Of a DNA stretch of 64,000 nt, positions 9,901 to 57,732 are shown in pieces. Source of the stretch: a virus. The notes under the pieces are model-generated. The model saw only the letters and a program-made list of their open reading frames with translations, was not told where the DNA came from and did no database searches. The stretch is from the IMG/VR virus record IMGVR_UViG_3300028422_000919, positions 338,384-402,383 of that record; one strand, given 5' to 3'. A program made the translations under genes and the position numbers. Numbering within the stretch: the stretch's first letter is position 1; each line of letters opens with the position of its first letter.

Positions 9901-12100
9901 GTTTGATCTCCATGTCCTGCTTGCGCCCCTTGGGCACTGGCTCCACGATCACCACAGGTTCCCCAGACTTCTCGTCAGTCTTGAACTCTTTGATAACCCC
10001 CTTCTTATTCTTGTACTTGCCGTACAAGACGGGGTCACCGACATTCAGGGTGAAGGTTTTGGCGATCCGCAGAGCTGCCTCCTTCATCCACTCGTTATCC
10101 TCCGGGGGGTACAGCTCCTGGAGGTGTGGCATCTCATCCTGGAGGCCCGTGTAGACCCCCTTGAGCAAAGTCTTCTTCGCCTGGGTGTTCAGGGCCCTAT
10201 GGACCCTGTTCCATGTGGTGGAATTCTCCAGGGCACGGTCCAGGAGGGACATCGAGGCTCCCGCCCAGAGGTTTCCGGCCCCCCCCTGCTCATGGACGTA
10301 ATCAATCACTTCGTCCACGATCTGCTGCATGAACGCCCGGATCTCAGTCGCTTCGTTGTGGTAGGTGTCCTCGTCAAGGTGACTGATTCCCCCTGGGGCA
10401 AGAAGGTCCCGGAGGTGGGTGATTTCATGAATCAGAACCGAGTACACCTCCTTGGCGACCCGGGCCTCATTGTCCAGAAACGCCTTGGGGGACTTGGCAG
10501 CATCGAGAGTGACCGTCATCTGGTACTTGAACGCATGGCTCCCCTGAACCCTCTGCGTAACTGCCCCCCCTACCACATACTGCCGGGGACCGCTGAAACC
10601 CAAGGCCTTGTTTCTGGACTCAACCTTGACATCCACAGCCACAAGGGCGCCCTTCACATCCTGGACGACGTACTTAGCGACGACAAAACCCCATGTGTCC
10701 GGCCGGAACCCCCGCTGGGAGTACAGAGAGTCAGAAGGGTCATCTCGAAACCGTAGGTGCTGGGGCAGCACCTGCATGATCTTGTCCGTCAGCCCCTTGG
10801 CCTCGACCTTGTTGATCGGAATAGGACGAGCAGCCCTCTTCTTGGTGTACGCCTGTGCCACTCGGAACACTGCCCCAGCGGTACGCTGCCAGCTTTCTGA
10901 GGTCATCCCCATCCGCTTAGCCGGCACCTGTCCTTTGCCCACCGTCCCCTGTCCCCGGGCAAGCCTCATAAGGGGCTTGCCATACAAACCGGACATGCTC
11001 AGCGCCCTCTGCATCCTGAACTTGCCCACATCGGACAGCTTCTCGGGGGCCGACATGAAGGCAACGAAAGACTCTGCAAAGTCCTCCCTCTCGTTGGTCT
11101 TGGCGTACTCAGTGGGCACATGTAGGGCTTCGATAGCCTGGGCCACCGCAGAGTCACCCTGGGCATACTCTGCCACCTGCTCTTCGGTGAGAACAGGGTG
11201 GTGGTAGCTAGAGTACGAGTCCAGCACTCCCATCTTGTCCTGCTTCTGGCGCCATGCCCGGGAAAGAACCTGGTCGAACCTCTCAGTCCCAGGAGTCACC
11301 CCCTGGTTCTCCTCGACGTGCTTCTGGAACCAGGACCGCAGAGCCTTATTCCGGCTGAGCCGCTTAGCGATCTGCTTCAGATGGTAGACGTTAGCATTCC
11401 CCATCCAGAAGGTCAGATCTTCTATGAGCCCCCGAAAATCCTGCTGGGCCTCGGAGCCCATCTCCAGAAAGGGGTCGGAGCTGCTGTACTTCTCCATGCC
11501 TGCACGGAGCTTGTGAACCTGAGGCATCCCCCAGACCTCAATCTCGTCGAAGGACCAGGAACCAGTCGGGATCGGACCCTCCCACTCAGTGTCGAGACCG
11601 TCGAGGTATTCAAGGGTGGTGTGGGGGCGGTAAACCGTCCAGCTATCCGTTACCTCGACCCCAATGTCCTGGATAGCCGACTTGAGACGGTCCCGAAGCT
11701 CTGCCATGCGGTGACTGAATCGAATGGGGAGAATAGCAACCCGCCGCTGCTGGGATTCATGGGTGAAGTAGTCCAACCCCTCCAGTTTGGCCTGTACGGG
11801 CCCCCTCAGTTCTTCGGACACCACCCGCTGGCAGGTCTCGATGAACTCGTCCTCATGACCCTTGACGTTGCCAACGTAGAGCAGAGTGACGTGGGGCGGA
11901 CTCTTGTCGTTACCCGACTTTTTCACCGGAAACTGGCTGGAAATCCCCCGGGGTAGAGGAATGAACAGCCCTGTCCACTCCGTGCTGTCGCCGGTCTTTT
12001 TGCCGTCATCGGGACCGGCGTGCCTTTTAGCCCAATCAGCCTTGACCTGCTGCCGGACGGCCAATCTGCGAGCCTGTGCTTGAAGAATAGGGTGCTCCAC
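6980..12100 (-). CDS. Multidomain protein: 2H phosphoesterase, HExxH metallopeptidase, KOW and topoisomerase IB domains, 1706 aa
   Basis: GTG start, GGAGG site eight bases upstream. Domains in order: (1) residues 40-200, a 2H phosphoesterase with two H-x-T motifs (H70, H160); (2) residues 300-350, an EDFAESF segment of a kind seen in phage zincin-like proteins; (3) residues 430-600, a metallopeptidase with HEITH (558-562) and downstream Glu residues; (4) residues 686-740, a KOW/SH3-like barrel; (5) residues 765-1020, topoisomerase IB aligning with the vaccinia enzyme over R838, K874, R929, H979 and Y988; (6) residues 1050-1706, charged helical and coiled-coil segments. Motif A sits at 410-422, 674-683, 752-764 and 1035-1048, that is between the domains. 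It lies between portal and protease genes, so a packaged virion protein, perhaps a polyprotein cut by the prohead protease, is likely. Packaging and cleavage are inferred. Confidence 0.75.
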   Translation of the reverse strand: MEHPILQAQARRLAVRQQVKADWAKRHAGPDDGKKTGDSTEWTGLFIPLPRGISSQFPVKKSGNDKSPPHVTLLYVGNVKGHEDEFIETCQRVVSEELRGPVQAKLEGLDYFTHESQQRRVAILPIRFSHRMAELRDRLKSAIQDIGVEVTDSWTVYRPHTTLEYLDGLDTEWEGPIPTGSWSFDEIEVWGMPQVHKLRAGMEKYSSSDPFLEMGSEAQQDFRGLIEDLTFWMGNANVYHLKQIAKRLSRNKALRSWFQKHVEENQGVTPGTERFDQVLSRAWRQKQDKMGVLDSYSSYHHPVLTEEQVAEYAQGDSAVAQAIEALHVPTEYAKTNEREDFAESFVAFMSAPEKLSDVGKFRMQRALSMSGLYGKPLMRLARGQGTVGKGQVPAKRMGMTSESWQRTAGAVFRVAQAYTKKRAARPIPINKVEAKGLTDKIMQVLPQHLRFRDDPSDSLYSQRGFRPDTWGFVVAKYVVQDVKGALVAVDVKVESRNKALGFSGPRQYVVGGAVTQRVQGSHAFKYQMTVTLDAAKSPKAFLDNEARVAKEVYSVLIHEITHLRDLLAPGGISHLDEDTYHNEATEIRAFMQQIVDEVIDYVHEQGGAGNLWAGASMSLLDRALENSTTWNRVHRALNTQAKKTLLKGVYTGLQDEMPHLQELYPPEDNEWMKEAALRIAKTFTLNVGDPVLYGKYKNKKGVIKEFKTDEKSGEPVVIVEPVPKGRKQDMEIKLFKLRYDEAAATAGGLSKEAVLRVSAKYQKKKEVPKADGKGTTTVYEYSEGQIELRNREKAKQVEKLRGSITKLRAQVSKDLKSKDEDTRLKALIVGLMDETYERVGNEESAEDGHYGVTGWKVKHLTFSGNKVTVKYVGKSGVSHEKVVSDPALVSALKAAKEGKGENDSLTGDISAEDVNEYLEPFGITAKDMRGYHANAEMQSRLKDIRSKGGELPEDKKERGKLLKKEFEQALKETAKAVGHEPSTLKSQYLVPGLADKYLASGEVMKRLDKKGSDEDPVRLGKGASTSLRLAAEWIRKAAGRVASAYLYRQATKDEGEKENEEVERMNRPKPSKKPPRQDLRRNRMDEYDPDVDDTGKAEKDPDLSLNYKKVAAITDAGDRMLMVLSGPPIRIAGKVPQDAEHKEGDYWQTENGWGVWPPKSKQPTSAPDEESAKRRAEGGGEGEEEEDPEVAAQQAEERKVKEREQQRAKQQRQLADFDKAVQGMDLGDLWPEEPEYPEVPEDQESAQGVRDHIQRLKAEYEKNVASAKQELAEAYASHMGQLLSARAEDGGLTVDVLKRAQSALKRGTKGLAEAAPQVRAKRLAEYVFATKVVANPRLVGGRAVNNNNKTAEELHGRSLEAYHQFRKAGPGLLDAAADQLKQELDKADPESDEYIELDAIKSGMMLAAAVQGRQLSGTEEMSKSFQRMAQSLAVLGDEDVLLKGASDLYSPEGRVKVRDALDIMSDDELVETVAGDNSPYEAIGRVLTDDDEDNHITAEGRAFARDVLKMLALNDMTVTQGFLNAFHKGKETDEKGKGKTKPTSKPTTDPESLAERVRQAKTDDKALKGAADELAHCIAKAVTQEDLESCLKAGEGVQVQDLRLTMSTAEKLSGTVPDKMNPNVARVRHVSETGDLSVLDQKVEPKDDGRKVREDKQNPEKTPEQKKQEWLKNVTDPKERKRIREMRPDAFRAYMRAVTEDKELPS

Positions 12101-12133: not shown

Positions 12134-12156
12134 CTATAAACAAATCACAGCGCCGG
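12134..12156 (-). promoter_or_regulatory. Candidate promoter-like element shared with 20628-20649
   Basis: Minus-strand reading gives CCGGCG, 5 bases, then GATTTGTTTATAG. Almost the same string lies upstream of the gene starting at 20595. The TTTATAG part could be a -10 or late-promoter core. It lies 34-56 bases upstream of the 1706-aa gene and partly overlaps the portal stop. There is no recognisable -35 box. Confidence 0.3.
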
Positions 12157-19915: not shown

Positions 19916-20595
19916 GCCGTCCTCCTTGCCGAGTACCGAGCTGCAAGGCGAGATGCCTGCACATGGATATTACCGTCGGCAGAGGCCAGTCTGGGCTTTC
20001 CGTCGGTCACCTTATCATCGTCCCGATCCGCCTCGGACTCTTCCTGCTCCGCCCACTCCTCCGGGTCCTCCCGAATTTCCTCCACTTCGTCCATGATCTG
20101 CTTGACCTCATCCCGATCACGGGGGTCTCCACCAGAGTCATCGACCCGAGGATTCCAATGGACGGCCTGCATCTCGTCGTACATCGAGTCGGAAACAGCG
20201 CTCAACGCCTCCAGGACGTTCGTGTAGAGCTTACGGATGTCCTTAATTGTCAGAATATAACCCTTCCCACCAATGGACCCGTCGGGGCTGATCCGCTGAC
20301 TCTTGATCTTGTTGAAAATGGTGTAGGCACTCTGGGCATGCCCCAGTGCCATCAAAGTAGCTCTCAGGGACTTGGCCAGGGGCTCCAGGTTCTTGGGGTT
20401 GAACTCGTAATCGGGGTCAATCATCCGCTCAGATGCCCCGGCGGGATTCCACGCCCATTCCTTGGAGTCCCCCCCACGATCCTTGATGAAGCGGACTTCA
20501 CCGGCCGTGCGGTCCATGGCGGCACGTTTCATATGTGCCGAAGCCACCCGGCGGATGGCTTCGGCGTCAAGCTGTGGAGTCCTCGTCGTGGACAT
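19912..20595 (-). CDS. Virion-region protein with motif A at both ends, 227 aa
   Basis: GGAGG site nine bases before the ATG. Residues 11-24 (AEAIRRVASAHMKR) are a strong copy of motif A; residues 211-225 (VQASRLAARYSARR) are a weaker copy at the C terminus. Between them lie a helical domain (70-150) and a long acidic stretch (150-195). The gene is preceded by a promoter-like element at 20628-20649. Function unknown. Two terminal tags around a small domain are what a packaged cargo protein might look like, which is inference. Confidence 0.58.
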   Translation of the reverse strand: MSTTRTPQLDAEAIRRVASAHMKRAAMDRTAGEVRFIKDRGGDSKEWAWNPAGASERMIDPDYEFNPKNLEPLAKSLRATLMALGHAQSAYTIFNKIKSQRISPDGSIGGKGYILTIKDIRKLYTNVLEALSAVSDSMYDEMQAVHWNPRVDDSGGDPRDRDEVKQIMDEVEEIREDPEEWAEQEESEADRDDDKVTDGKPRLASADGNIHVQASRLAARYSARRTA

Positions 20596-20627: not shown

Positions 20628-20649
20628 CTATAAACCAAATACCCGCCGG
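20628..20649 (-). promoter_or_regulatory. Candidate promoter-like element shared with 12134-12156
   Basis: Minus-strand reading gives CCGGCG, 4 bases, then ATTTGGTTTATAG, matching the element upstream of the 1706-aa gene. It lies 33-54 bases before the start at 20595, in a 56-base gap, a sensible place for a promoter. The match could also be chance in GC-rich DNA. Confidence 0.33.
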
Positions 20650-24672: not shown

Positions 24673-25758
24673 TCAGCTCCAGACCGAGAACTGGTACTTG
24701 TACTTGATGCCGCCCTGGTCCATCTTCGCCTGGAGCTGCTTCCCCGTCATGCGCTTGATGTCGTCCTGGTTGGCCTTGGCCCACAGGAACATCTTGCGGG
24801 CGCCCGCAGGACTGGTACTCACCAACTTGGTGTAGTGGGGGTCTCCACCGAAGGCGTACTCATCAAGCTGCTTGTCGGTGTAGCCATTGTTGAGGGTGAC
24901 GTCGAACGAGGTCCACTCAGCCTTGATATAGAACTCATCCTTCGCCTTGATCTCGACGGGGGCATAGTCCACCGGCTCAACCTGGAGGTAGTTGACATCC
25001 TCTTCTTTAGGCATCCAACGACCCGTGAGGGACTGGGAAACCCAATCGGGGTACTCCAAACCCTCTTTATCCAGATCCTTGAACGCCTTCTCGATGGCCT
25101 TCTTGAGGCCAGCAGCAGAGGCTTCGGCGGTCTGGGAGGCGTTGGGCTTCCAGTCCCGCTCCAGGTTCTCGATCATGAAGTAGTCGTAGATCTTCCCCAA
25201 CGGTCCCGTCCCGTTGAGACTCTGGATCTGACCACCAATGCCAAACGTGAACCGCTTGAGGCTCCGCTTACCCTTCTGGGGCAGTTCCTCGATGACGACG
25301 TAGTGCCGGGGGTGCCCGGAGATACGGATACGGGTCTTGTCGCCGACGAGAATCTTGTCCCACTTCTCACGGGCGATTCGAGCAGCGGCCCACCGCCCCA
25401 TGAAGTCCTCATCGGCCCTGGCTCCCTCAAACTCCCGCCATGCCTGCTCGGCAGCCTTGCCGGTCAGAATGCTCTTGGTCTGGGGGTAGTAGAGGACCCG
25501 GTCACCCGCCCGGAAAGGGATTCCCTTCTCATCCACGCCGGGGCGCCGGGCGTTGATCCAGCGGGGGTCTCCCCCCTGACCACGGCTCCGGCCGGACCAG
25601 CCGGCCGACTTATCGTCGTTGCCCTCAACATACCCGAGCCCCGGGTCCTCCGCTGACTCCACGTTGAGGTGGGCGTGCTTCCGAAGGAGAGGAACCAGGT
25701 GCTTGCGGATGGACGGCACGTCCACTGCCAACTTGCTCAGCTTGCTGTAGAGATTCAT
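24673..25758 (-). CDS. Virion-region protein with N-terminal motif B, 361 aa
   Basis: The chain opens with motif B (NLYSKLSKLAVDVPSIRKH then LVPLLRKHA, residues 2-29). A disordered Gly/Asp-rich linker (30-70) follows, then AGDRVLYYPQT (83-93), an SH3-like strand, and a larger domain of about 260 residues rich in aromatic and basic residues with no recognised catalytic motif. Tag, linker, domain is the same plan as in neighbouring proteins. Function unknown; a packaged or minor virion protein is suggested. Confidence 0.57.
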   Translation of the reverse strand: MNLYSKLSKLAVDVPSIRKHLVPLLRKHAHLNVESAEDPGLGYVEGNDDKSAGWSGRSRGQGGDPRWINARRPGVDEKGIPFRAGDRVLYYPQTKSILTGKAAEQAWREFEGARADEDFMGRWAAARIAREKWDKILVGDKTRIRISGHPRHYVVIEELPQKGKRSLKRFTFGIGGQIQSLNGTGPLGKIYDYFMIENLERDWKPNASQTAEASAAGLKKAIEKAFKDLDKEGLEYPDWVSQSLTGRWMPKEEDVNYLQVEPVDYAPVEIKAKDEFYIKAEWTSFDVTLNNGYTDKQLDEYAFGGDPHYTKLVSTSPAGARKMFLWAKANQDDIKRMTGKQLQAKMDQGGIKYKYQFSVWS

Positions 25759-46073: not shown

Positions 46074-46611
46074 TGTTACCCCGGGTCTTGATCTTGGCCG
46101 CATCCGCAGCCTGCTTGATGCCTTCCAGTACCCCCCGGAGCTGTTCGGCCTGCTGGCCCAGCACCTCGATCTGAGAGAGGTCAGCGTTGGCAACAGACTC
46201 CCGCATCTTCGCCACGTCCACCACAGGAGCAGCGGCGAGCCGGGCATGATGCCCCTCCAAAAGAGGGAGGGGCAGCTTCTTCAACACTCCATCGAATTGG
46301 CGCACCGACCAGATCCCCTGGTCGGTAACCAGCACCCCCTCCGCCTTGACGGAAAGCATCCGGAGGCGGTGCTCCGGGATGTGGTGCTCTACAGGGCAAT
46401 CCCCCCGGCCCTGCCAAAGGCAGCTCCCGTACCCCCACTTGGAATCGTCCAAACCCCCCGGAGGAACGTAATGGAAGGCGATGTTGATGTGCTGTCCCAG
46501 CAATGGACGCAGGAGGTCCACGATGGGGGTGGGTTCCCCCTCAGAACCCTGGATACTGAGGGTTCCGTTGTGCTGTAGGACGATGCCCTCGGCGAGAACG
46601 ATATTGAGCAT
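46066..46611 (-). CDS. Hypothetical protein, 181 aa
   Basis: The ATG is preceded by GAGGTGAT, which lies inside the 3' arm of a perfect 11-base hairpin (46616-46655). The protein has a strand-rich N-terminal part, a Gly/Cys/His segment in the middle (YGSCLWQGRGDCPVEHHIPE) that might bind metal, and a C-terminal helix. It overlaps the RecD2-like gene by eight bases. Family not recognised. Confidence 0.53.
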   Translation of the reverse strand: MLNIVLAEGIVLQHNGTLSIQGSEGEPTPIVDLLRPLLGQHINIAFHYVPPGGLDDSKWGYGSCLWQGRGDCPVEHHIPEHRLRMLSVKAEGVLVTDQGIWSVRQFDGVLKKLPLPLLEGHHARLAAAPVVDVAKMRESVANADLSQIEVLGQQAEQLRGVLEGIKQAADAAKIKTRGNNG

Positions 46612-46669: not shown

Positions 46670-49600
46670 CTACTTCTTCAACGCCCAGGGAAGCTGGCAG
46701 GACTCCCCGGAGCAGAACTTATCCTCGGACTCCACATCGTGGGTCCCTTCGTCAAAGTTCAGCGGCTTGATCCCCGACATCATACGGTGGTAGGTAGCCT
46801 CGTTGATGGTCTCGTAGGGAGCCTGCACATACCCGTGAGTCTTGAGGGGCAGCATCGAAATGGACTTAAGCTGATCCTCGAACGCCTCCAAGCAACGGGG
46901 GATTTCGGACACCTCTTCCGAACTGAAGGTCACCGTCACTGAGACCTGGTTGTCAGCCCAGTGCTTCTGGAGAGCAGCGGCCAGAGAGAACTGCTCCCAG
47001 ATGCTAACCTCGTCTTTGGCTCGGTCGAAGTTCTTCTCATGGACCGGGAACTCAATGACGCTGGTGTCGTCGGCGTAGTGGTCCGCCTCGACCGTGTACC
47101 CCGCCTCACGAGCCGCCTTGATGAGGGTGCTCGTGTTGGAGAGCCGGATGCGGCGGATGTAGAACTCGGAGTGAGGGAAGTGGATGCCTGGAGTCGCCCC
47201 CGCCAACAGACTGACGGTCCCCGACGGCTTGATCGAGGTAGTCTTCTTCGACAGGGGAACCCCCAGCCACTCACTGTAGATGCGATCGAGATCCCGAATG
47301 TACTCGTACCCGTCGTCACACCAGTTCAGGAACTCCCGGTGGCCGAGCTTCTGCCGAGCCTGGGCGATCCCGCTCATGGAGCACCCGATGCGGCGGTTCC
47401 GCTGCATCACCAGGTTGGCACGAGGGTCATGAGTAGGGACCAAGGTGACCGTCTTGGCGTACAGGTACGCCATCTTCAATGTCCGCTTGTAGTCGTCCAT
47501 GTCCGCATGGTGAGCGGGGTAGGTCTCCACAAGATTGCATTGGTATGTCAGCACGTTGCCGAACACACCCATATGGTTCTCGGGCTCATCGAAGCAGTAG
47601 GTCGTATGCAAACCATCCAGCTTTTCGACCTTGACCACCTTCTGTTCCCGAGCCCGGTCGAGGGGCTGTCCTTTCGGGTGTGCATTGTTCATGGTGTAAC
47701 GGTCCCCCAGGGAGGTCAGCACCTTCAGCCGGGTCGGGATCTCGGCACACTCGTAGCTGGGGATCGTAAGATAGTAGAGGTCATAGTTCCGGGTGCCGTA
47801 GTTGGTCTCGGCCCCCGCCTCAGCGAACATCCGAAGGCTGGCATGATTGACACCCACTCGCCGGAGAAGAAGCTGGGCGTCACGCAGCTTGGCCTCGGAA
47901 CCATACAGTCGGAACCCTTCCGCCACCGAACCGGCATTGGTGATGCTGCCATCGGCCTCGATCCACCCTGCCATGAATTCCAGAATGGAGCCCCTGTCCA
48001 TGCGGAGAATGTCCGGTGCCAGACCGGAGGTCTTGGACCGGAGGGACTCCGCAACATTCACCGGGAGGATGCCCTTCAGATTGAGGCGGTTGACCGGGTC
48101 CGTGTACCCCTCGACGATCTGCGGCTTGTGCCATGTGCCGTGGACGTCGAGATCCATGAGCTTGGCCTTTTCCCCGCAGATGGCGACCATCGGGTAGGTG
48201 TAGCCCCCCTCCCGATCCAGGTAGCCACCCCCTGCAAAAAGCCCCCACTCAAAAGCCGCCACGTTGTGCTCGCCGTCGATGGGGGCGTCGATGTCGAAGG
48301 AAATGACCTGACTGCCCTTGGTAAGCTCTGCCGTCTCAACTCGGCGGAATACACGCTTTCCGACCGGCTTGACGTGCCACCCGTGGTTCCCCGTGCAGTC
48401 CAGGTATGAACCGTCGGACAAATGGACCCGGAACAACTCCCGGCCCTCCCCCGTCACCCGAGGGGTCACCGTAGACCAGCCATCGCCATTCCAAATGTCC
48501 ACAGACTCTCCGGCCAGCTCGGAGATGGCCTGAATCCCTCGGCGGTGCTGGATGTAAGTGTCCGAACTCACACACAATTCAAAGGATTCGAGCGATTGCT
48601 CGCCGCAGGGATTCGTGCCCAGAATGCGGTGGTCTCGCCCATCCGGAGGGTCCCCCATGCGTCCGTACTGGCGGGCGTTGTCCAGCCAGAAGATGCCGGG
48701 CTCACCGTTGGCAGCGATTCGGGAGGCAACCGAGGTGTAGTCCATGCCGGGGTAGCCAAACACGCTGTTGTTCGACGCCCATCGGCGATCATTCAGGGGG
48801 TGAGCCTGGATGGCCTGCTCAACCTCACCCAGCTCCTCCTCCCACTGACCAATCTGGAAGTCCCCAGGGTTCTTCTCGATCAGGTTCCGCAACTCACTCT
48901 CTCGGGCGTACAGGGGAAGCAAGTCCGCATTGGACTTGAGGTTGATGAACTTCTCGTCGGAAGCCTGGCCGAACATAATCTCGGCGGTGTTGTGGACGAG
49001 ATAACCCCCCTGAACCACGAACTCACCGGCCTCCACCGAGATATCGTAAGTCTCATCCTCCCGCACCCGATGTTCGACGTAAATGACCTCTACGGGCACC
49101 AGCACCACATCCTGCCCCGTCAGGTCTTCCAGTCGGGCAATAGTGATCTGCCGGGAGGACCGGGACCACCGCATTTGACCGTCCTTCCACCCGCTAACCC
49201 CACCATCCAGCGCCATCTGCGAGGGGAACCCGTAATCGTACTGAGAACGGGAGGACTCCCGAGTCTCAGTGAACTTCAACGAGTGCGAGGCGACCTTTCG
49301 CTGAAACCCCGCCAACGCCTTCTCACCGACGACCGTGAGGTGAAAAAGAGGCTGCCAACCGTTCGTCTCACGGCTCTTGTCCTTGTGAAGCTGAAACCGG
49401 CTCGGAACACCCAACGAGGCCAACACCGCTTGGACCCCCTCCAAAAAAGAGGGGTACACGCTGGCAGCCACCACCAGAGGACGGTTCTTGATGGACCCGT
49501 CCGCATCCATCAAACCGGCCACGAACGCAGCCCGAACTTCGGGCAAACCCCGAAGGACGATGTCGGGAACCTCCAAGGTCGTCTTGGGCTGCTTGAACTG

Positions 49601-51148
49601 ACCCAGGAACTCCGCCAACTGCTTCGACTTGACCCGCACTTTAAAGCACTGGTCCCCATCACGGGGATCTTGGACGGTGACGTTCACCCCGAACCGCTGA
49701 AGACAGGACATCGCCCGTGCGGCGATGTCGCCCTGATCCCCGGCCACGGCGATGGACACCTCCTTGTCGTTGACGTACCCGTCCCCCTGGAACAACCCCA
49801 ACAGCCACGCCATCTCGGCATCCAGCTTTGGGATGGTGATGTTCGTACAAGTTGTGGAGCCCAAGGGCGAGGCGTAGTTATACGACGGAAACTCGGTGGC
49901 GACCCCCTCAATGAGCCGGTCCACGAAAACCATCCGGTCCCCCGGCTCCAACTCGTGCAGCTTTTTCCACGAATACCCGCCACTCACGTCAGAGATCACG
50001 GCGATCTTGTGCTTATCCGTCGCCTCGAAGACCCCCATCTGGGTAACGACCTGACTGATTGGCTGAACCCCCTGCTCCACCCAATCGGTGACCCGGCTCA
50101 ACCCCTGGGATGTCATCACCTGAGAACCCACCTTCACCTTCTCAATAGGCACCAACCCCTCTGCCGTATGAACAAGGGTGCCCGCCGGAAGGCAACGACG
50201 AACCCCCCCGGCCACCACACACTTCCCGATGAAGTTGAACACGTCTACGATCTGATCGGACTGGATGCGGTAGGGCTTACCCTGGCCCTCGAACAGCACC
50301 TTGATCTCGTCGATGTCCGTGGGGTTGCCATCCCACCCCTCCCGCTGGGCCCCGTTGGGCTCGACCGTCCGGAACTTGACGGTAACCCCCTCGGGCAGCA
50401 GAAGACGGGTAACCCCCTCGACCAACCGCTTCAGGGGGGCGGCGCCGGAAGCGATCCCACCAAAGCCGAGGATGGCAGTTCCCCGAGGACGAACCTTCGT
50501 GTAGTCGATGGTGAGGGGGAACTGACCACGACCCACGAAGCTGTTCAGGACGGTGCGAGCCAGCTCGACCCAGCCCTCACGGCTGTCCTCCACGAGAAAC
50601 GGGGTGTCCGTCGTCTTGGGGGTCTGGATTCGGGCCTTCCCCTCACCACGGGTGTCCCCGCCTACCCCGACCCCCAGCATAGACATGTCCATGAGGAACG
50701 TGAAAGGGGCGGCGAACTCCTGGTCAATGTCCTTCGTGCTGACGAAAGCGCAGTTTTGCAGAGCGGCAGCCCCCTTGTCGTAGATGAGGTCAGTCCCCAT
50801 CATCCAGAGCCCACGGCCCGGGGGCGTCCATTTGAAGTCCCAGAGCCGCTGGAACATGTCCTGGGCGCTCTTCTGGGCCTTGGGTTCGTTCCACATCAAC
50901 CCCATCGTCAGGCAGTGGTCCTTCTGGATGTTGAAACACCCTTCGACCACCCGCTGGCATGTCTGCCAGAACTCTTCGGTTGTCCCGTCCGAGAGTGTCC
51001 GGGCATATGTGCGCTTGTACGTGAAGTACCCGAGGCCTCCGAAGCCCCACTCCGGCTGCTTCCCCTGGAATTGCTCCAAGAAACCTTGGCTCAGCTTGAA
51101 CGCTCGCACCTTTCTGTCGGTCACGGGGGGGTTGGGATTGAAAATCAT
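46670..51148 (-). CDS. nrdJ: Class II (adenosylcobalamin) ribonucleoside-triphosphate reductase with two inteins
   Basis: Reduces ribonucleotides to deoxyribonucleotides for phage DNA synthesis. ATG at 51148 with GGAG seven bases upstream. The 1492-aa chain loses two inteins (402 and 345 aa) to give about 745 aa, the size of monomeric B12-dependent reductases such as the Lactobacillus enzyme. Visible residues: first redox Cys in LQNCAFVS, the radical site TNPCGEQ (Cys and Glu), the second redox Cys in ESFELC, KPSGTVSLLAG, and a C-terminal C-x4-C (CSGESC). Intein 1 enters after GGVRR, intein 2 at the second redox Cys. No metal-radical subunit is needed by this class. Confidence 0.92.
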   Translation of the reverse strand: MIFNPNPPVTDRKVRAFKLSQGFLEQFQGKQPEWGFGGLGYFTYKRTYARTLSDGTTEEFWQTCQRVVEGCFNIQKDHCLTMGLMWNEPKAQKSAQDMFQRLWDFKWTPPGRGLWMMGTDLIYDKGAAALQNCAFVSTKDIDQEFAAPFTFLMDMSMLGVGVGGDTRGEGKARIQTPKTTDTPFLVEDSREGWVELARTVLNSFVGRGQFPLTIDYTKVRPRGTAILGFGGIASGAAPLKRLVEGVTRLLLPEGVTVKFRTVEPNGAQREGWDGNPTDIDEIKVLFEGQGKPYRIQSDQIVDVFNFIGKCVVAGGVRRCLPAGTLVHTAEGLVPIEKVKVGSQVMTSQGLSRVTDWVEQGVQPISQVVTQMGVFEATDKHKIAVISDVSGGYSWKKLHELEPGDRMVFVDRLIEGVATEFPSYNYASPLGSTTCTNITIPKLDAEMAWLLGLFQGDGYVNDKEVSIAVAGDQGDIAARAMSCLQRFGVNVTVQDPRDGDQCFKVRVKSKQLAEFLGQFKQPKTTLEVPDIVLRGLPEVRAAFVAGLMDADGSIKNRPLVVAASVYPSFLEGVQAVLASLGVPSRFQLHKDKSRETNGWQPLFHLTVVGEKALAGFQRKVASHSLKFTETRESSRSQYDYGFPSQMALDGGVSGWKDGQMRWSRSSRQITIARLEDLTGQDVVLVPVEVIYVEHRVREDETYDISVEAGEFVVQGGYLVHNTAEIMFGQASDEKFINLKSNADLLPLYARESELRNLIEKNPGDFQIGQWEEELGEVEQAIQAHPLNDRRWASNNSVFGYPGMDYTSVASRIAANGEPGIFWLDNARQYGRMGDPPDGRDHRILGTNPCGEQSLESFELCVSSDTYIQHRRGIQAISELAGESVDIWNGDGWSTVTPRVTGEGRELFRVHLSDGSYLDCTGNHGWHVKPVGKRVFRRVETAELTKGSQVISFDIDAPIDGEHNVAAFEWGLFAGGGYLDREGGYTYPMVAICGEKAKLMDLDVHGTWHKPQIVEGYTDPVNRLNLKGILPVNVAESLRSKTSGLAPDILRMDRGSILEFMAGWIEADGSITNAGSVAEGFRLYGSEAKLRDAQLLLRRVGVNHASLRMFAEAGAETNYGTRNYDLYYLTIPSYECAEIPTRLKVLTSLGDRYTMNNAHPKGQPLDRAREQKVVKVEKLDGLHTTYCFDEPENHMGVFGNVLTYQCNLVETYPAHHADMDDYKRTLKMAYLYAKTVTLVPTHDPRANLVMQRNRRIGCSMSGIAQARQKLGHREFLNWCDDGYEYIRDLDRIYSEWLGVPLSKKTTSIKPSGTVSLLAGATPGIHFPHSEFYIRRIRLSNTSTLIKAAREAGYTVEADHYADDTSVIEFPVHEKNFDRAKDEVSIWEQFSLAAALQKHWADNQVSVTVTFSSEEVSEIPRCLEAFEDQLKSISMLPLKTHGYVQAPYETINEATYHRMMSGIKPLNFDEGTHDVESEDKFCSGESCQLPWALKK
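47540..48574 (-). mobile_element. Intein 2 of the ribonucleotide reductase, 345 aa
   Basis: Begins at Cys (CVSSDTYIQ) after the extein ESFEL and ends in NVLTYQ, followed by Cys of the extein. The last residue is Gln rather than Asn, a known but uncommon ending. Splicing block B is seen as TGNHGWH. LAGLIDADG-like motifs: a degenerate first one (WGLFAGGGYL, acidic residue replaced by Gly) and an intact-looking second (MAGWIEADGSI). Splicing is probably intact because the host enzyme needs it; homing endonuclease activity is probably lost. Confidence 0.85.
48989..50194 (-). mobile_element. Intein 1 of the ribonucleotide reductase, 402 aa, with LAGLIDADG homing endonuclease
   Basis: Starts with CLPAGTLVHTAEG (N-terminal splicing block) after GGVRR and ends with GGYLVHN, followed by Thr of the extein (TAEIMFG). 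Cys first, His-Asn last and Thr at the next position are standard. The central homing endonuclease has WLLGLFQGDG and FVAGLMDADG, both LAGLIDADG motifs with the acidic residue kept, so it may still cut an intein-less reductase gene. Confidence 0.92.
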
Positions 51149-51218
51149 GTTGTCTCCATCTGGCGAACAGTACACCGCCAGGTCAAACGGGTGTCATGTG
51201 GTGACCCTGAGGCAACAA

Positions 51219-54787: not shown

Positions 54788-55978
54788 TTAGCCTCGCAGG
54801 AGGGGAACCAGGTGCTGGCGGAGTTCGGGGTGTCCGGAGGCCAGCTTACACACGTCCTGGCGGAGGATAGCCTCCATCTGGAACCCGTACTTGCGGAACC
54901 GACCGAACGTGCTCTCGTCCTCCATGATGTCGGACCAGGAGATGTCCTGGGTCTCCACACCCAACGTATCCAGCCTGTTCCGCACCGCCCGCTGAAGAGA
55001 CTGGTTTCCTTCCATGGCCTGGAAAATGACAGGCATGGCGGCCATCCAGTGCTTTTTGACTTTGACTTTTGCCGCAGCCTCTCCTTTGCTGTCCATCCCC
55101 GGAACGATGTATCCGGCAGCTTCCGCAAGCTCCTTCCCCGAGATGAACTCTCCACGATTCAGAGCCTCCCACCAAGCCTGCATGGTGGGGATGGCGGCAG
55201 TGGGAATCTTCGTGTCGATGATCTTTTTGATAGCCTGCCGGACGGCCTTCCCCAGCGGGTCGTTGGAGAAGAAAACCATGTCGAACACGTCCCTCGACAC
55301 CTGAGAGGGATCAGCCACGCCACCATGGCCGCCTTCCTCGGTCTGCCCGTGCGGTCCGGTGTCCAGAGTAATCCCCTGGATCCTCTGGTGGCGACGGAGC
55401 TTGTTGATCACGTTAAGAGCGGCCTTCTTGAGGCTCTTGCCAAGGGCCCCAGCGGCAACTTTGCCCGGGGATTCAGTACCGTCCAGGATGCCCGCCGAGA
55501 GGAATTTGCCGGCTTCCCAGAATTTGTTCTTGATCTTGCGGCGGACGACCTCCCCTTCTTCATCGACGTCGGCTCCCAGGCCAGCAACGCCGTCCTGGAC
55601 GACATCCTCCCCGGTCATGTCGGGGACCCCCGAGCGGCTGAGCCAACCGTCGAGTTGCCGGGTGAGCATCCGCACCATCCCCGTAGAGTTCGGGAGGAAC
55701 CAGTCGGGGTCCATGTCAGGGACGTACTCGGCCAGGTGGGCCTGGGCTTTCTTCAGCCCTCTCATGGGGTTCTGAGCCCAGGTGAACTCCCGGACCCCCG
55801 CTGCCCCCTCAAGGATGACCAGGCGGGCCATCACGTCGTAAAGGCCGTCCTCCGTCAGGGCCTTCTTCAGGTGGCGGTACGCCAGCCGGATGGCGGCCTG
55901 TTTCCCTCGGCTGGCAAAACGCTTATGAGAGGTTTCCCGGAGCGTAATCAGAGCCAAGAGCTTCTGGTACATGTTCAT
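54788..55978 (-). CDS. Sigma-like helical protein with C-terminal motif B, 396 aa
   Basis: ATG with GAGG eight bases upstream, divergent from the plus-strand gene. Residues 27-40 (QAAIRLAYRHLKKA) resemble motif A and residues 372-396 (QDVCKLASGHPELRQHLVPL end) are a clear motif B. The middle has DMTGEDVVQDGVAGL (120-134), like the start of sigma-70 region 2, and KKAALNVINKLRRHQRIQ (184-201); the later helices near 290-330 could form a region 4-like part. If both readings hold, it would be a sigma-like protein bearing the packaging-type tag, possibly injected with DNA. The sigma similarity is weak. Confidence 0.48.
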   Translation of the reverse strand: MNMYQKLLALITLRETSHKRFASRGKQAAIRLAYRHLKKALTEDGLYDVMARLVILEGAAGVREFTWAQNPMRGLKKAQAHLAEYVPDMDPDWFLPNSTGMVRMLTRQLDGWLSRSGVPDMTGEDVVQDGVAGLGADVDEEGEVVRRKIKNKFWEAGKFLSAGILDGTESPGKVAAGALGKSLKKAALNVINKLRRHQRIQGITLDTGPHGQTEEGGHGGVADPSQVSRDVFDMVFFSNDPLGKAVRQAIKKIIDTKIPTAAIPTMQAWWEALNRGEFISGKELAEAAGYIVPGMDSKGEAAAKVKVKKHWMAAMPVIFQAMEGNQSLQRAVRNRLDTLGVETQDISWSDIMEDESTFGRFRKYGFQMEAILRQDVCKLASGHPELRQHLVPLLRG

Positions 55979-56081
55979 GCTATGATCCTCATTGGAGCCG
56001 GGAACCCCCCGGGCCTGTTCCTGTTGAAGGTGGGGTATAGGAACCCTACCGATCTCATCCCCATGTCGGACCTTCTGGTGC

Positions 56082-56109
56082 TTGACTTCCTAAGCCAACT
56101 TGGTATGGT
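56082..56109 (+). promoter_or_regulatory. Sigma-70-type promoter for the plus-strand gene
   Basis: TTGACT (56082-56087), 16-base spacer, TATGGT (56104-56109), 100 bases before the start at 56209. The 230-base divergent region also contains CCTATACC on the minus strand near 56030 that might serve the 396-aa gene. The ribosome binding site AAGGAGG precedes the plus-strand ATG by seven bases. Confidence 0.5.
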
Positions 56110-56208
56110 TGTCCAGTCGGGGAGCGACCCAGACCCACTCGGAACGAGATTTCGTCTACCGTCGCTGCCCGGAATTTTTCCAAGGCCACAGGCCAAGGAG
56201 GATGCCGC

Positions 56209-57732
56209 ATGTCGGTTCCGCAGCAGCCCGGGAATTTCGCCCGGGGGGAGCTTCACCAAGCTCTCTTCGCCCACTTCGCCAAGTCCCCCATTAACACGCC
56301 GCACGATGCCAGACAGGTTCTCGACCAGGTGATGATCGATCTGGGAAGGGACGATGACCGTAGTCGCAAAGCCATCCGGAAAAGTTTCTACAAGATGGTG
56401 GATGGCGGCTACATGCGTCAGACTGGCCGGGGTTCCTGGGCGTTGACCGAGTCGGGGATGGAGGTGTTCATCTCCAAGTCCAATGGACAGAAACCAGCCC
56501 CCAAAAAGAACATCGACGCTTCACCTCTCCCCAAGCCGAAGCCCCCGACCCCCGAGCAGAGTTACGCCGCCCAGCTCGCCAACAACGTAGGTACGTTGGC
56601 GATGAGGGATGATTTGTCTTTCACGATGCGGACTCGTACCCTCGACGAGCTGAACCGGGACATCATCGACACGTCGATGCAGGTGGACAAGGTGGAGAAA
56701 GCCACAGAGGCCGCACTGGAGCAGATTCGGGAGACCCGCCGAATGGTCGAAAAGCTGAAGATGGACCGGGCCATCTCTGAAGCTCGGGCCACAAAGGAGA
56801 GAGTCCAGAAGCGCCTCGCCCAGGTGTTGGACACCCAACAGAAGGTGTACGCTGAGCTGGCTTCTCTCCGGGCCGAGGTCAACGCTTTCCAGACTGAGAC
56901 TCCTAGCATGGATAATGCTGTCGTTGTCCCTGAGAGCAACGACGGGGACGACGGGGACGAGGGGGACGAGGGGGACGAGGGGGACGACGACCCGGACCTA
57001 TCGGGGCCGGACGATCACCGTCGTTCGGCCCCTGACAAGAACTACACCTCTGAGTGGTTGAGCACTCACCTTCGCCCCACGGGGCGAAGCGGCGAATCAA
57101 AATTGATGCGGGCCATGAAGGCTGCCGTCCGCTCGAAATGTCCGATCTCCGCTCAGTCTGATAAAGTGGAGGACCACATCCAGGAGTTCCTGTTGAAGCT
57201 GGTTCGTCGGGACGGCCTCCGTAAGAAGATCTTGGCAGGCGACAAGATCACCTACAGCCATCTGGCCTCCTACGCCGTCCGTAGCGCCTGGACGGACGCC
57301 CGGAACGCCGGCACAGAGCCGGTGGAGCGGGAGATGTACGGTGCCCGGACGGAGAGGGAGCGGAGAGAATGGGGGGACACCCCCCTCCCAGAACTCCCTC
57401 AGACAAAGCCAGACTCCCGACTCATTTGGGGAGGGGAGGAAGATGGAAACTCCGCCATCGTCGGCGTCGTCGACGCCGCCAACCCTCCTGACGTTTTGTT
57501 CCAGCAGCGGAAAGACTTCGAGGTTATGTGGTCTCGTATCGAGACCGTCATGCGGTCTCAGAAACCCCAAGCGTGGGAGCGGTACTCCGGAATCTTGCGG
57601 ATGAAGTACCAAGGGCTTTCGACAGACGACATTGCCGAGAAAGAGAACGTCTCTACCCACCGGGCGGCATCCCTGATCCAGGAAGCCAAGTCTGCCATTC
57701 GTGCGGTGGGGTTCGAGAGTCTTATGGCTTAG
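56209..57732 (+). CDS. Winged-helix, coiled-coil and sigma-like regulator, 507 aa
   Basis: The only plus-strand gene. ATG with AAGGAGG. Domains: residues 12-90, a winged helix (RKAIRKSFYKMVDGGYMRQT then GRGSWALTESG); 145-230, coiled coil; 245-262, an acidic tract from a GACGAGGGG-type DNA repeat; 300-380, a region resembling sigma region 2 (DKVEDHIQEFLLKLVRRDGL, then SHLASYAVRSAWTDAR); 455-500, a helix-turn-helix like sigma region 4 (ILRMKYQGLSTDDIAEKENV). Opposite orientation and its own promoter suggest an early regulator or phage sigma factor. Function is inferred from fold-type resemblance. Confidence 0.62.
   Translation: MSVPQQPGNFARGELHQALFAHFAKSPINTPHDARQVLDQVMIDLGRDDDRSRKAIRKSFYKMVDGGYMRQTGRGSWALTESGMEVFISKSNGQKPAPKKNIDASPLPKPKPPTPEQSYAAQLANNVGTLAMRDDLSFTMRTRTLDELNRDIIDTSMQVDKVEKATEAALEQIRETRRMVEKLKMDRAISEARATKERVQKRLAQVLDTQQKVYAELASLRAEVNAFQTETPSMDNAVVVPESNDGDDGDEGDEGDEGDDDPDLSGPDDHRRSAPDKNYTSEWLSTHLRPTGRSGESKLMRAMKAAVRSKCPISAQSDKVEDHIQEFLLKLVRRDGLRKKILAGDKITYSHLASYAVRSAWTDARNAGTEPVEREMYGARTERERREWGDTPLPELPQTKPDSRLIWGGEEDGNSAIVGVVDAANPPDVLFQQRKDFEVMWSRIETVMRSQKPQAWERYSGILRMKYQGLSTDDIAEKENVSTHRAASLIQEAKSAIRAVGFESLMA

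Follow-up and report, generated by a model that had tools for sequence, protein, structure and literature searches.

P0001, a 507-residue protein of a huge tailed phage, is quite probably a divergent sigma-70-family transcription initiation factor, i.e. a promoter-specificity factor for the host RNA polymerase (RNAP). A sigma2-sigma4 module in a phage record in which no polymerase was found is most simply read as such a factor. The identification rests on the agreement of independent methods, the individual E-values being modest: fold comparison of a predicted structure, profile searches with the protein family, and conservation of the module among related huge phages. In most of these relatives with strong matches the gene is paired back to back with a probable distant paralogue. 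The window, i.e. the whole stretch of 64,000 nucleotides that was analysed, corresponds to G000:338384-402383 in an IMG/VR record of 402,383 bases; its features are collected in Table 1.

Table 1. Features of the window that bear on P0001, its partner and other sigma-related elements
Feature	Coordinates	Strand	Description and basis
P0001 gene	56209..57732	+	507 aa, ATG start; winged helix - coiled coil - sigma2-like - sigma4-like
Winged-helix domain	56242..56481	+	Residues 12-91, Mrr_N-like; AlphaFold2, pLDDT ~85; Foldseek PadR family prob 1.00
Long helix / coiled coil	56641..56892	+	Residues 145-228, lineage-specific; AlphaFold2
Acidic low-complexity linker	56923..57006	+	Residues 239-266, 14/28 D/E; pLDDT <50
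Sigma region-2-like domain	57043..57372	+	Residues 279-388, VEDHIQEFL motif; AlphaFold2, family conservation
Sigma region-4-like domain	57484..57711	+	Residues 426-501; AlphaFold2 pLDDT 90-96; Pfam family and PDB profile matches
Candidate promoter	56082..56109	+	TTGACT-N16-TATGGT, extended -10 TG; 9/12 matches
Shine-Dalgarno sequence	56195..56202	+	AAGGAGGA; read directly in sequence
Divergent intergenic region	55979..56208	.	230 bp, common to the pair
Partner gene	54788..55978	-	396 aa, divergent from P0001; probable distant paralogue of the sigma2-sigma4 module
P0003	26171..26887	-	238 aa, two sigma-4 helix-turn-helix copies; Sigma70_r4_2 3.6e-10, two stretches, above Pfam cut-off
Candidate phage promoter element	12134..12141	-	GTTTATAG; 41 bp upstream of start at 12100
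Candidate phage promoter element	20628..20635	-	GTTTATAG; 40 bp upstream of start at 20595

The gene and its genomic setting

The open reading frame of P0001 was recovered with exactly the coordinates given by the sequence-only reading, and it is a real gene: its codon-usage coding score of 128.6 (0.254 per codon) lies within the range of the minus-strand genes, and its GC content by codon position is 0.61/0.44/0.75 as against 0.64/0.42/0.78 for the neighbour. The window carries ~53 genes, nearly all on the minus strand. In a gene set chosen by coding score P0001 is the sole strong plus-strand gene, and to this extent the earlier statement that it is the only one holds; a marginal plus-strand ORF of 110 aa (46246-46578, score 16) is a possible second. 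The strand bias around P0001 is regional: of the 61 genes called in the neighbouring 100 kb of the record, 13 are on the plus strand. The description "lone" needs qualifying in another respect, since the gene is half of a conserved divergent pair with 54788-55978 (minus strand). Recent acquisition as the reason for its standing alone was rejected in view of the conservation of orientation and position in relatives.

The gene is preceded by the good ribosome binding site that had been noted. The -35/-10 sequence that had been called recognisable does show its matches and extended -10, but sites of this type occur overall at chance frequency (2 seen in 14 kb vs 2.3 expected), so that the candidate promoter is plausible mainly because of its position. 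A regulator that is switched separately would fit the lone orientation of the gene and the promoter-like site in front of it.

Among the genes of the window and record are those for a major head protein, protease, portal, large terminase (TerL), clamp, clamp loader, UvsX, an SbcCD-like protein, ribonucleotide reductase (RNR) and helicases; P0001 itself has genes of replication and nucleotide functions around it (clamp loader, RNR, helicases, UvsX). Within the phage-record collection LR745208.1 (485 kb; TerL 54%) is the nearest relative. The RNR ORF at 46670-51175 (minus strand, 1501 aa) shows its RNR matches piecewise, with matches to HNH/endonuclease families in the middle, which suggests an intein. 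A search for the RNAP beta' C-terminal domain found none in the phage record or in 13 related and comparison records, the control being positive in 14 of 14 cellular genomes; this search covered one RNAP domain in a record that may be incomplete, and an RNAP could have been missed. Since no beta' gene was found in the phage, the host RNAP is the likely partner of P0001.

Domain anatomy and resemblance to sigma factors

An AlphaFold2 model of P0001, built with 16 sequences, bears out the domain order first proposed: winged helix, coiled coil, acidic disorder and two well-predicted helical domains. The sigma2-like part (residues 279-366) has pLDDT about 95, with values of 86-96 for residues 281-360. 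The N-terminal extension amounts to 275 aa, region 3 is absent, and a disordered linker of ~40-60 residues separates the sigma2-like and sigma4-like domains in the model. With regard to the architecture, the combination of winged helix and sigma module is the plan of the family, while the coiled coil and the acidic linker are confined to the P0001 lineage; because relatives do not share them they are lineage-specific additions, and the idea that they are essential was discarded on the same ground. The P0001 winged helix matches Pfam Mrr_N at E 0.066, below the cut-off, and the best relative does so at 7.4e-4; three of 11 family winged helices match Mrr_N, the best at about 7e-4.

Fold similarity to sigma regions 2 and 4 had been set beforehand as the point on which the sequence-only reading could fail, and the best Foldseek matches of the model in the PDB proved to be nearly all sigma factors. 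The top matches were sigma32, SigA, SigL, AlgU, sigmaE and SigB, over 217-290 aligned columns, with E-values of 0.04-0.3, none <0.001, and prob mostly 0.6-0.9; TM-scores for the chain as a whole are low, since the model does not predict how the domains are arranged. The N-terminus matched PadR-type winged-helix regulators, and viral matches include several RpoE-like phage sigma factors. The model of the 396-aa partner, put through the same procedure, gave no match to a sigma factor and none to any protein above prob 0.1; since this was only noise, the sigma matches of P0001 are not the generic outcome of Foldseek for any helical model.

Searched alone, P0001 matched Pfam Sigma70_r4_2 at E=0.018, below the Pfam cut-off, its PHROG matches were sub-threshold, and no relevant PDB sequence was found. 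Pfam searches with 23 family members reached 4e-5 for Sigma70_r4, 3e-4 for Sigma70_r4_2 and 6e-4 for Mrr_N; Sigma70_r2 was matched by one of the 23 (E 1.3e-3) and not by P0001 itself. Family members also matched the PHROG sigma factor family at 6e-5. The family profile matched sigma factors among PDB sequences at 3e-4 to 0.06 (6pfv 3e-4, FliA 0.013, RpoH 0.017, SigA 0.03), in a search that also returned other helix-turn-helix (HTH) proteins and had a repeat protein as its top match. For region 4, the Pfam matches of family members, the PDB profile search and Foldseek all point to the sigma-70 family; for region 2 the fold does so, and sequence support is weak. Sigma-4-like domains also occur in non-sigma regulators.

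Relatives in huge phages and the divergent partner

A tblastn search of 50,697 phage records gave a single distant match to P0001, in LR745208.1 (residues 318-481), and a close-relative scan of cellular genomes found no relative. The family was sought in IMG/VR records of TerL relatives, with the main matches falling on P0001 residues about 272-499. A profile of this C-terminal module matched 33 of 50 records of TerL-related huge phages at E<=1.2e-14, the 33 being related and not independent; weaker matches were to the phage's other sigma gene (3.7e-5) and to bona fide sigma genes of relatives. The module gene is on the strand opposite TerL in 30 of the 33 (the exceptions being G007, G013 and LR745208.1), often at a distance of 35-50 kb. 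Distances between the modules are correlated with those between the TerL proteins (Mantel r 0.41, 0/5000 permutations), consistent with vertical inheritance.

The alignment shows two conserved blocks, the region-2-like ..VEDHVQ.FL..LI.RD.L...L..GK...S.L..WA.RSA.T..R..G.DA..R...GA.T..E and the HTH ..G.T..EIA...GVS..RA......R..L. The first of these contains VEDHVQ..L, which is similar to the DLVQE motif of sigma region 2.2, and has, by eye, an aromatic residue at what we take to be the place of the region 2.3/2.4 aromatics. Winged helices precede the sigma module in many relatives, e.g. two copies in L120 and three in L176, with further winged-helix-like segments in others; several members have extra C-terminal domains, and some (e.g. 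L110, L111, L112) have short N-termini without a recognisable winged helix. The winged helix is common in the family, not universal.

The gene upstream of P0001 on the opposite strand is also conserved. Seventeen loci had 3-kb flanks, a set that includes the window itself and one near-identical pair, and in 16 of them the sigma-like gene is back to back with an upstream opposite-strand gene; the remaining locus, L118, has no called upstream gene, and its record (G022) has the partner by profile. The upstream proteins are homologous to each other. A profile of the partner was applied to the 22 records whose sigma matches are strongest: in 19 it places the partner next to the sigma-like gene and divergent from it, in G042 the partner is 7 kb away, and in G013 and G017 it was not found by this profile. 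More distant relatives have a winged-helix-sigma gene and no detectable partner.

Resemblance of the partner to sigma factors was first seen by eye and had no support from PDB profile search and Foldseek and weak support from Pfam; it was rescued by profile-profile comparison with controls. The P0001 and partner family profiles align by hhalign with prob 90.7 and a score of 51.6 over 181 columns, as against maxima of 13.8 for column shuffles and 32.4 for 12-column block shuffles, and about 15 for reversed profiles and TerL. Taken by domain, sigma2 aligns with the middle part of the partner at 30.0 (null max 21.0) and sigma4 with the partner HTH at 30.9 (null max 23.4), the cross-comparisons being at noise. 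Pfam Sigma70_r2 is weakly matched by two members or paralogues, the partner itself has a weak Pfam match (0.026), and its PDB profile search gave no sigma factor above noise. Because neither that search nor Foldseek returned sigma factors, the partner is termed a probable distant paralogue of the sigma2-sigma4 module, and not a proven sigma factor.

Several other genes of these phages are related to the partner or to sigma factors. Outside the window, a tail-to-tail pair occupies about 83.7-86.2 kb of G000 (L185:9018-10199, minus strand, and L185:7674-8546, plus strand). It is made up of a second gene of the partner type, at 83.7-84.5 kb, and, convergent with it, a gene at 85.0-86.2 kb for an ECF-like sigma factor whose N-terminal domain is unusual. 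In G018 the partner gene (L117:284-2416, minus strand) is a fused tandem duplicate of 710 aa with two copies. Many otherwise different proteins of these phages have a short motif like LRxxLIRLAHxxPxLRxxLLPLLK at one of their termini, N or C, including in the window at 54841 (C-terminus of 54788-55978, minus strand) and 25728 (N-terminus of 24673-25758, minus strand), and also in L003, L035, L043, L123-L126 and L186, with dozens of weak profile matches; it might serve as a tag for packaging, targeting or processing. P0003 is possibly a minimal sigma factor or one of the gp33 type; Sigma70_r4 (PF04545) matches were found in 14 of 14 huge-phage records searched, with the two-copy pattern in several, often near TerL.

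The element GTTTATAG occurs just twice in 402 kb, both times at candidate late promoters of the sequence-only reading. LR745208.1 has one copy, near TerL and 35 bp upstream of a start codon; G022 also has one, which falls within an ORF, and neither G001 nor G018 has any. The pattern is suggestive of a phage promoter element, without link to P0001. A further sequence, CAATAGAGTG, has exactly two occurrences but was rejected, its one-mismatch copies being near control frequency.

Proposed role, alternatives and significance

For the working of P0001 as an initiation factor we infer RNAP binding, promoter recognition, a role of the winged helix, timing and a relation of the two partners. Through its sigma2-like and sigma4-like domains P0001 would attach to the beta' coiled coil and the beta flap of the host RNAP and recognise promoters of the phage. 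The N-terminal winged helix may add a DNA or protein contact, either an upstream or extended contact or the binding of a partner. Transcription of the P0001 gene would start at a promoter of its own and run counter to the genes around it, the gene facing the paralogous sigma-like gene across a common control region, an arrangement that suggests co-regulation, joint action or sequential action.

A sigma-derived protein could also bind RNAP without initiating, as a co-activator or antiterminator of the T4 gp33 or Q type, with its sigma4-like part on the beta flap and the winged helix on DNA. The sigma4 part is indeed the best-supported sequence match, the phage has an independent sigma4 factor (P0003) as well as a separate ECF-like sigma gene, and the PHROG "anti-termination protein Q-like" is weakly matched by three of 23 members (best 0.0039), with Pfam Phage_antitermQ at 0.08 in one. 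However, the region-2-like domain, with its VEDHxQ motif and the presumed 2.3/2.4 aromatic, is kept across most of the family, and the Foldseek matches span both sigma domains. A non-initiating regulator appears rather unlikely. Much less probable again is a DNA-binding protein of replication, repair or packaging whose sigma-like helices arose by convergence. The replication and nucleotide genes around P0001 would suit such a protein, and Mrr_N-type winged helices are also found in nucleases, but no nuclease or ATPase family is matched, and the Pfam, PDB profile and Foldseek sigma signals agree.

The divergent pair may be a two-part system, either a heterodimeric or two-subunit initiation factor or a couple in which one protein antagonises the other as an anti-sigma by mimicry; this is possible though somewhat doubtful, and as a refinement it is compatible with P0001 being a sigma factor for the host RNAP. 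The divergent adjacency in 19 of 22 strongest loci and the paralogy in both domains speak for it, as do the precedents of SigO-RsoA (PMC8103513) and T4 gp55/gp33 (PMC2988020) and, for mimicry, PhyR, a response regulator with a sigma-like domain (PMC8103513). Unlike in split sigmas, however, a sigma2-like and a sigma4-like part seem to be present together in each of the two proteins, and the distant relatives without a detectable partner also stand against it. Tentatively, the paralogous pair might form a two-component initiation or switching system on the host RNAP, in which one member gains a new promoter contact through one to three Mrr_N-type winged helices, an architecture that would be undescribed in cells and known phages.

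Phage sigma factors as such are known already, as are split ones in T4 and SigO-RsoA. P0001, as a probable sigma factor for the host RNAP, shares with the ECF (group IV) sigma-70 proteins (SigL, AlgU, RpoE) the layout of sigma2 and sigma4 without region 3; ECF sigmas are among its best Foldseek matches, and profile matches fall at sigma4. ECF sigmas consist only of these two domains with a short linker and no N-terminal extension, whereas P0001 has the winged helix, coiled coil and acidic linker at its N-terminus and a long sigma2-sigma4 linker, and its family has a strong conserved motif, R..G.DA..R...GA.T..E, after region 2.4; identity is too low to reach Pfam cut-offs. On the model, P0001 may work like an ECF sigma without being classed as one. 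T4 gp55 and gp33 are phage-encoded sigma-related subunits acting on the host RNAP (PMC2988020), and like T4 the phage of P0001 encodes a clamp and clamp loader; in T4, however, gp55 is sigma2-like only and the sigma4 role is on gp33, whereas P0001 carries both domains, with a winged helix, on one chain. In Bacillus subtilis SigO-RsoA the sigma4 and sigma2 parts are similarly split between two proteins (PMC8103513); it is a functional precedent for the pair, although here both genes seem two-domain and are divergent.

Group 2 jumbo phages, according to the sigma-factor passages of Iyer et al. 2021 (PMC7824862), are without RNAP and have their own sigma factors, minimal HTH and RpoD-like; the double HTH of P0003 resembles the minimal HTH sigma of those passages, in which there is no mention of a winged helix fused to a sigma factor or of sigma genes in a divergent pair. 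In the literature searched, the coverage of which is incomplete, no such fusion and no divergent pair of sigma paralogues was found for huge phages.

The P0001 family is unannotated by public family libraries across many related genomes. Most huge phages are known from metagenomes alone, and how they take over host transcription without a polymerase of their own is largely open; the winged-helix sigma factor, its divergent partner, the minimal double-sigma4 factor and the candidate promoters offer a testable set with which this question may be approached.
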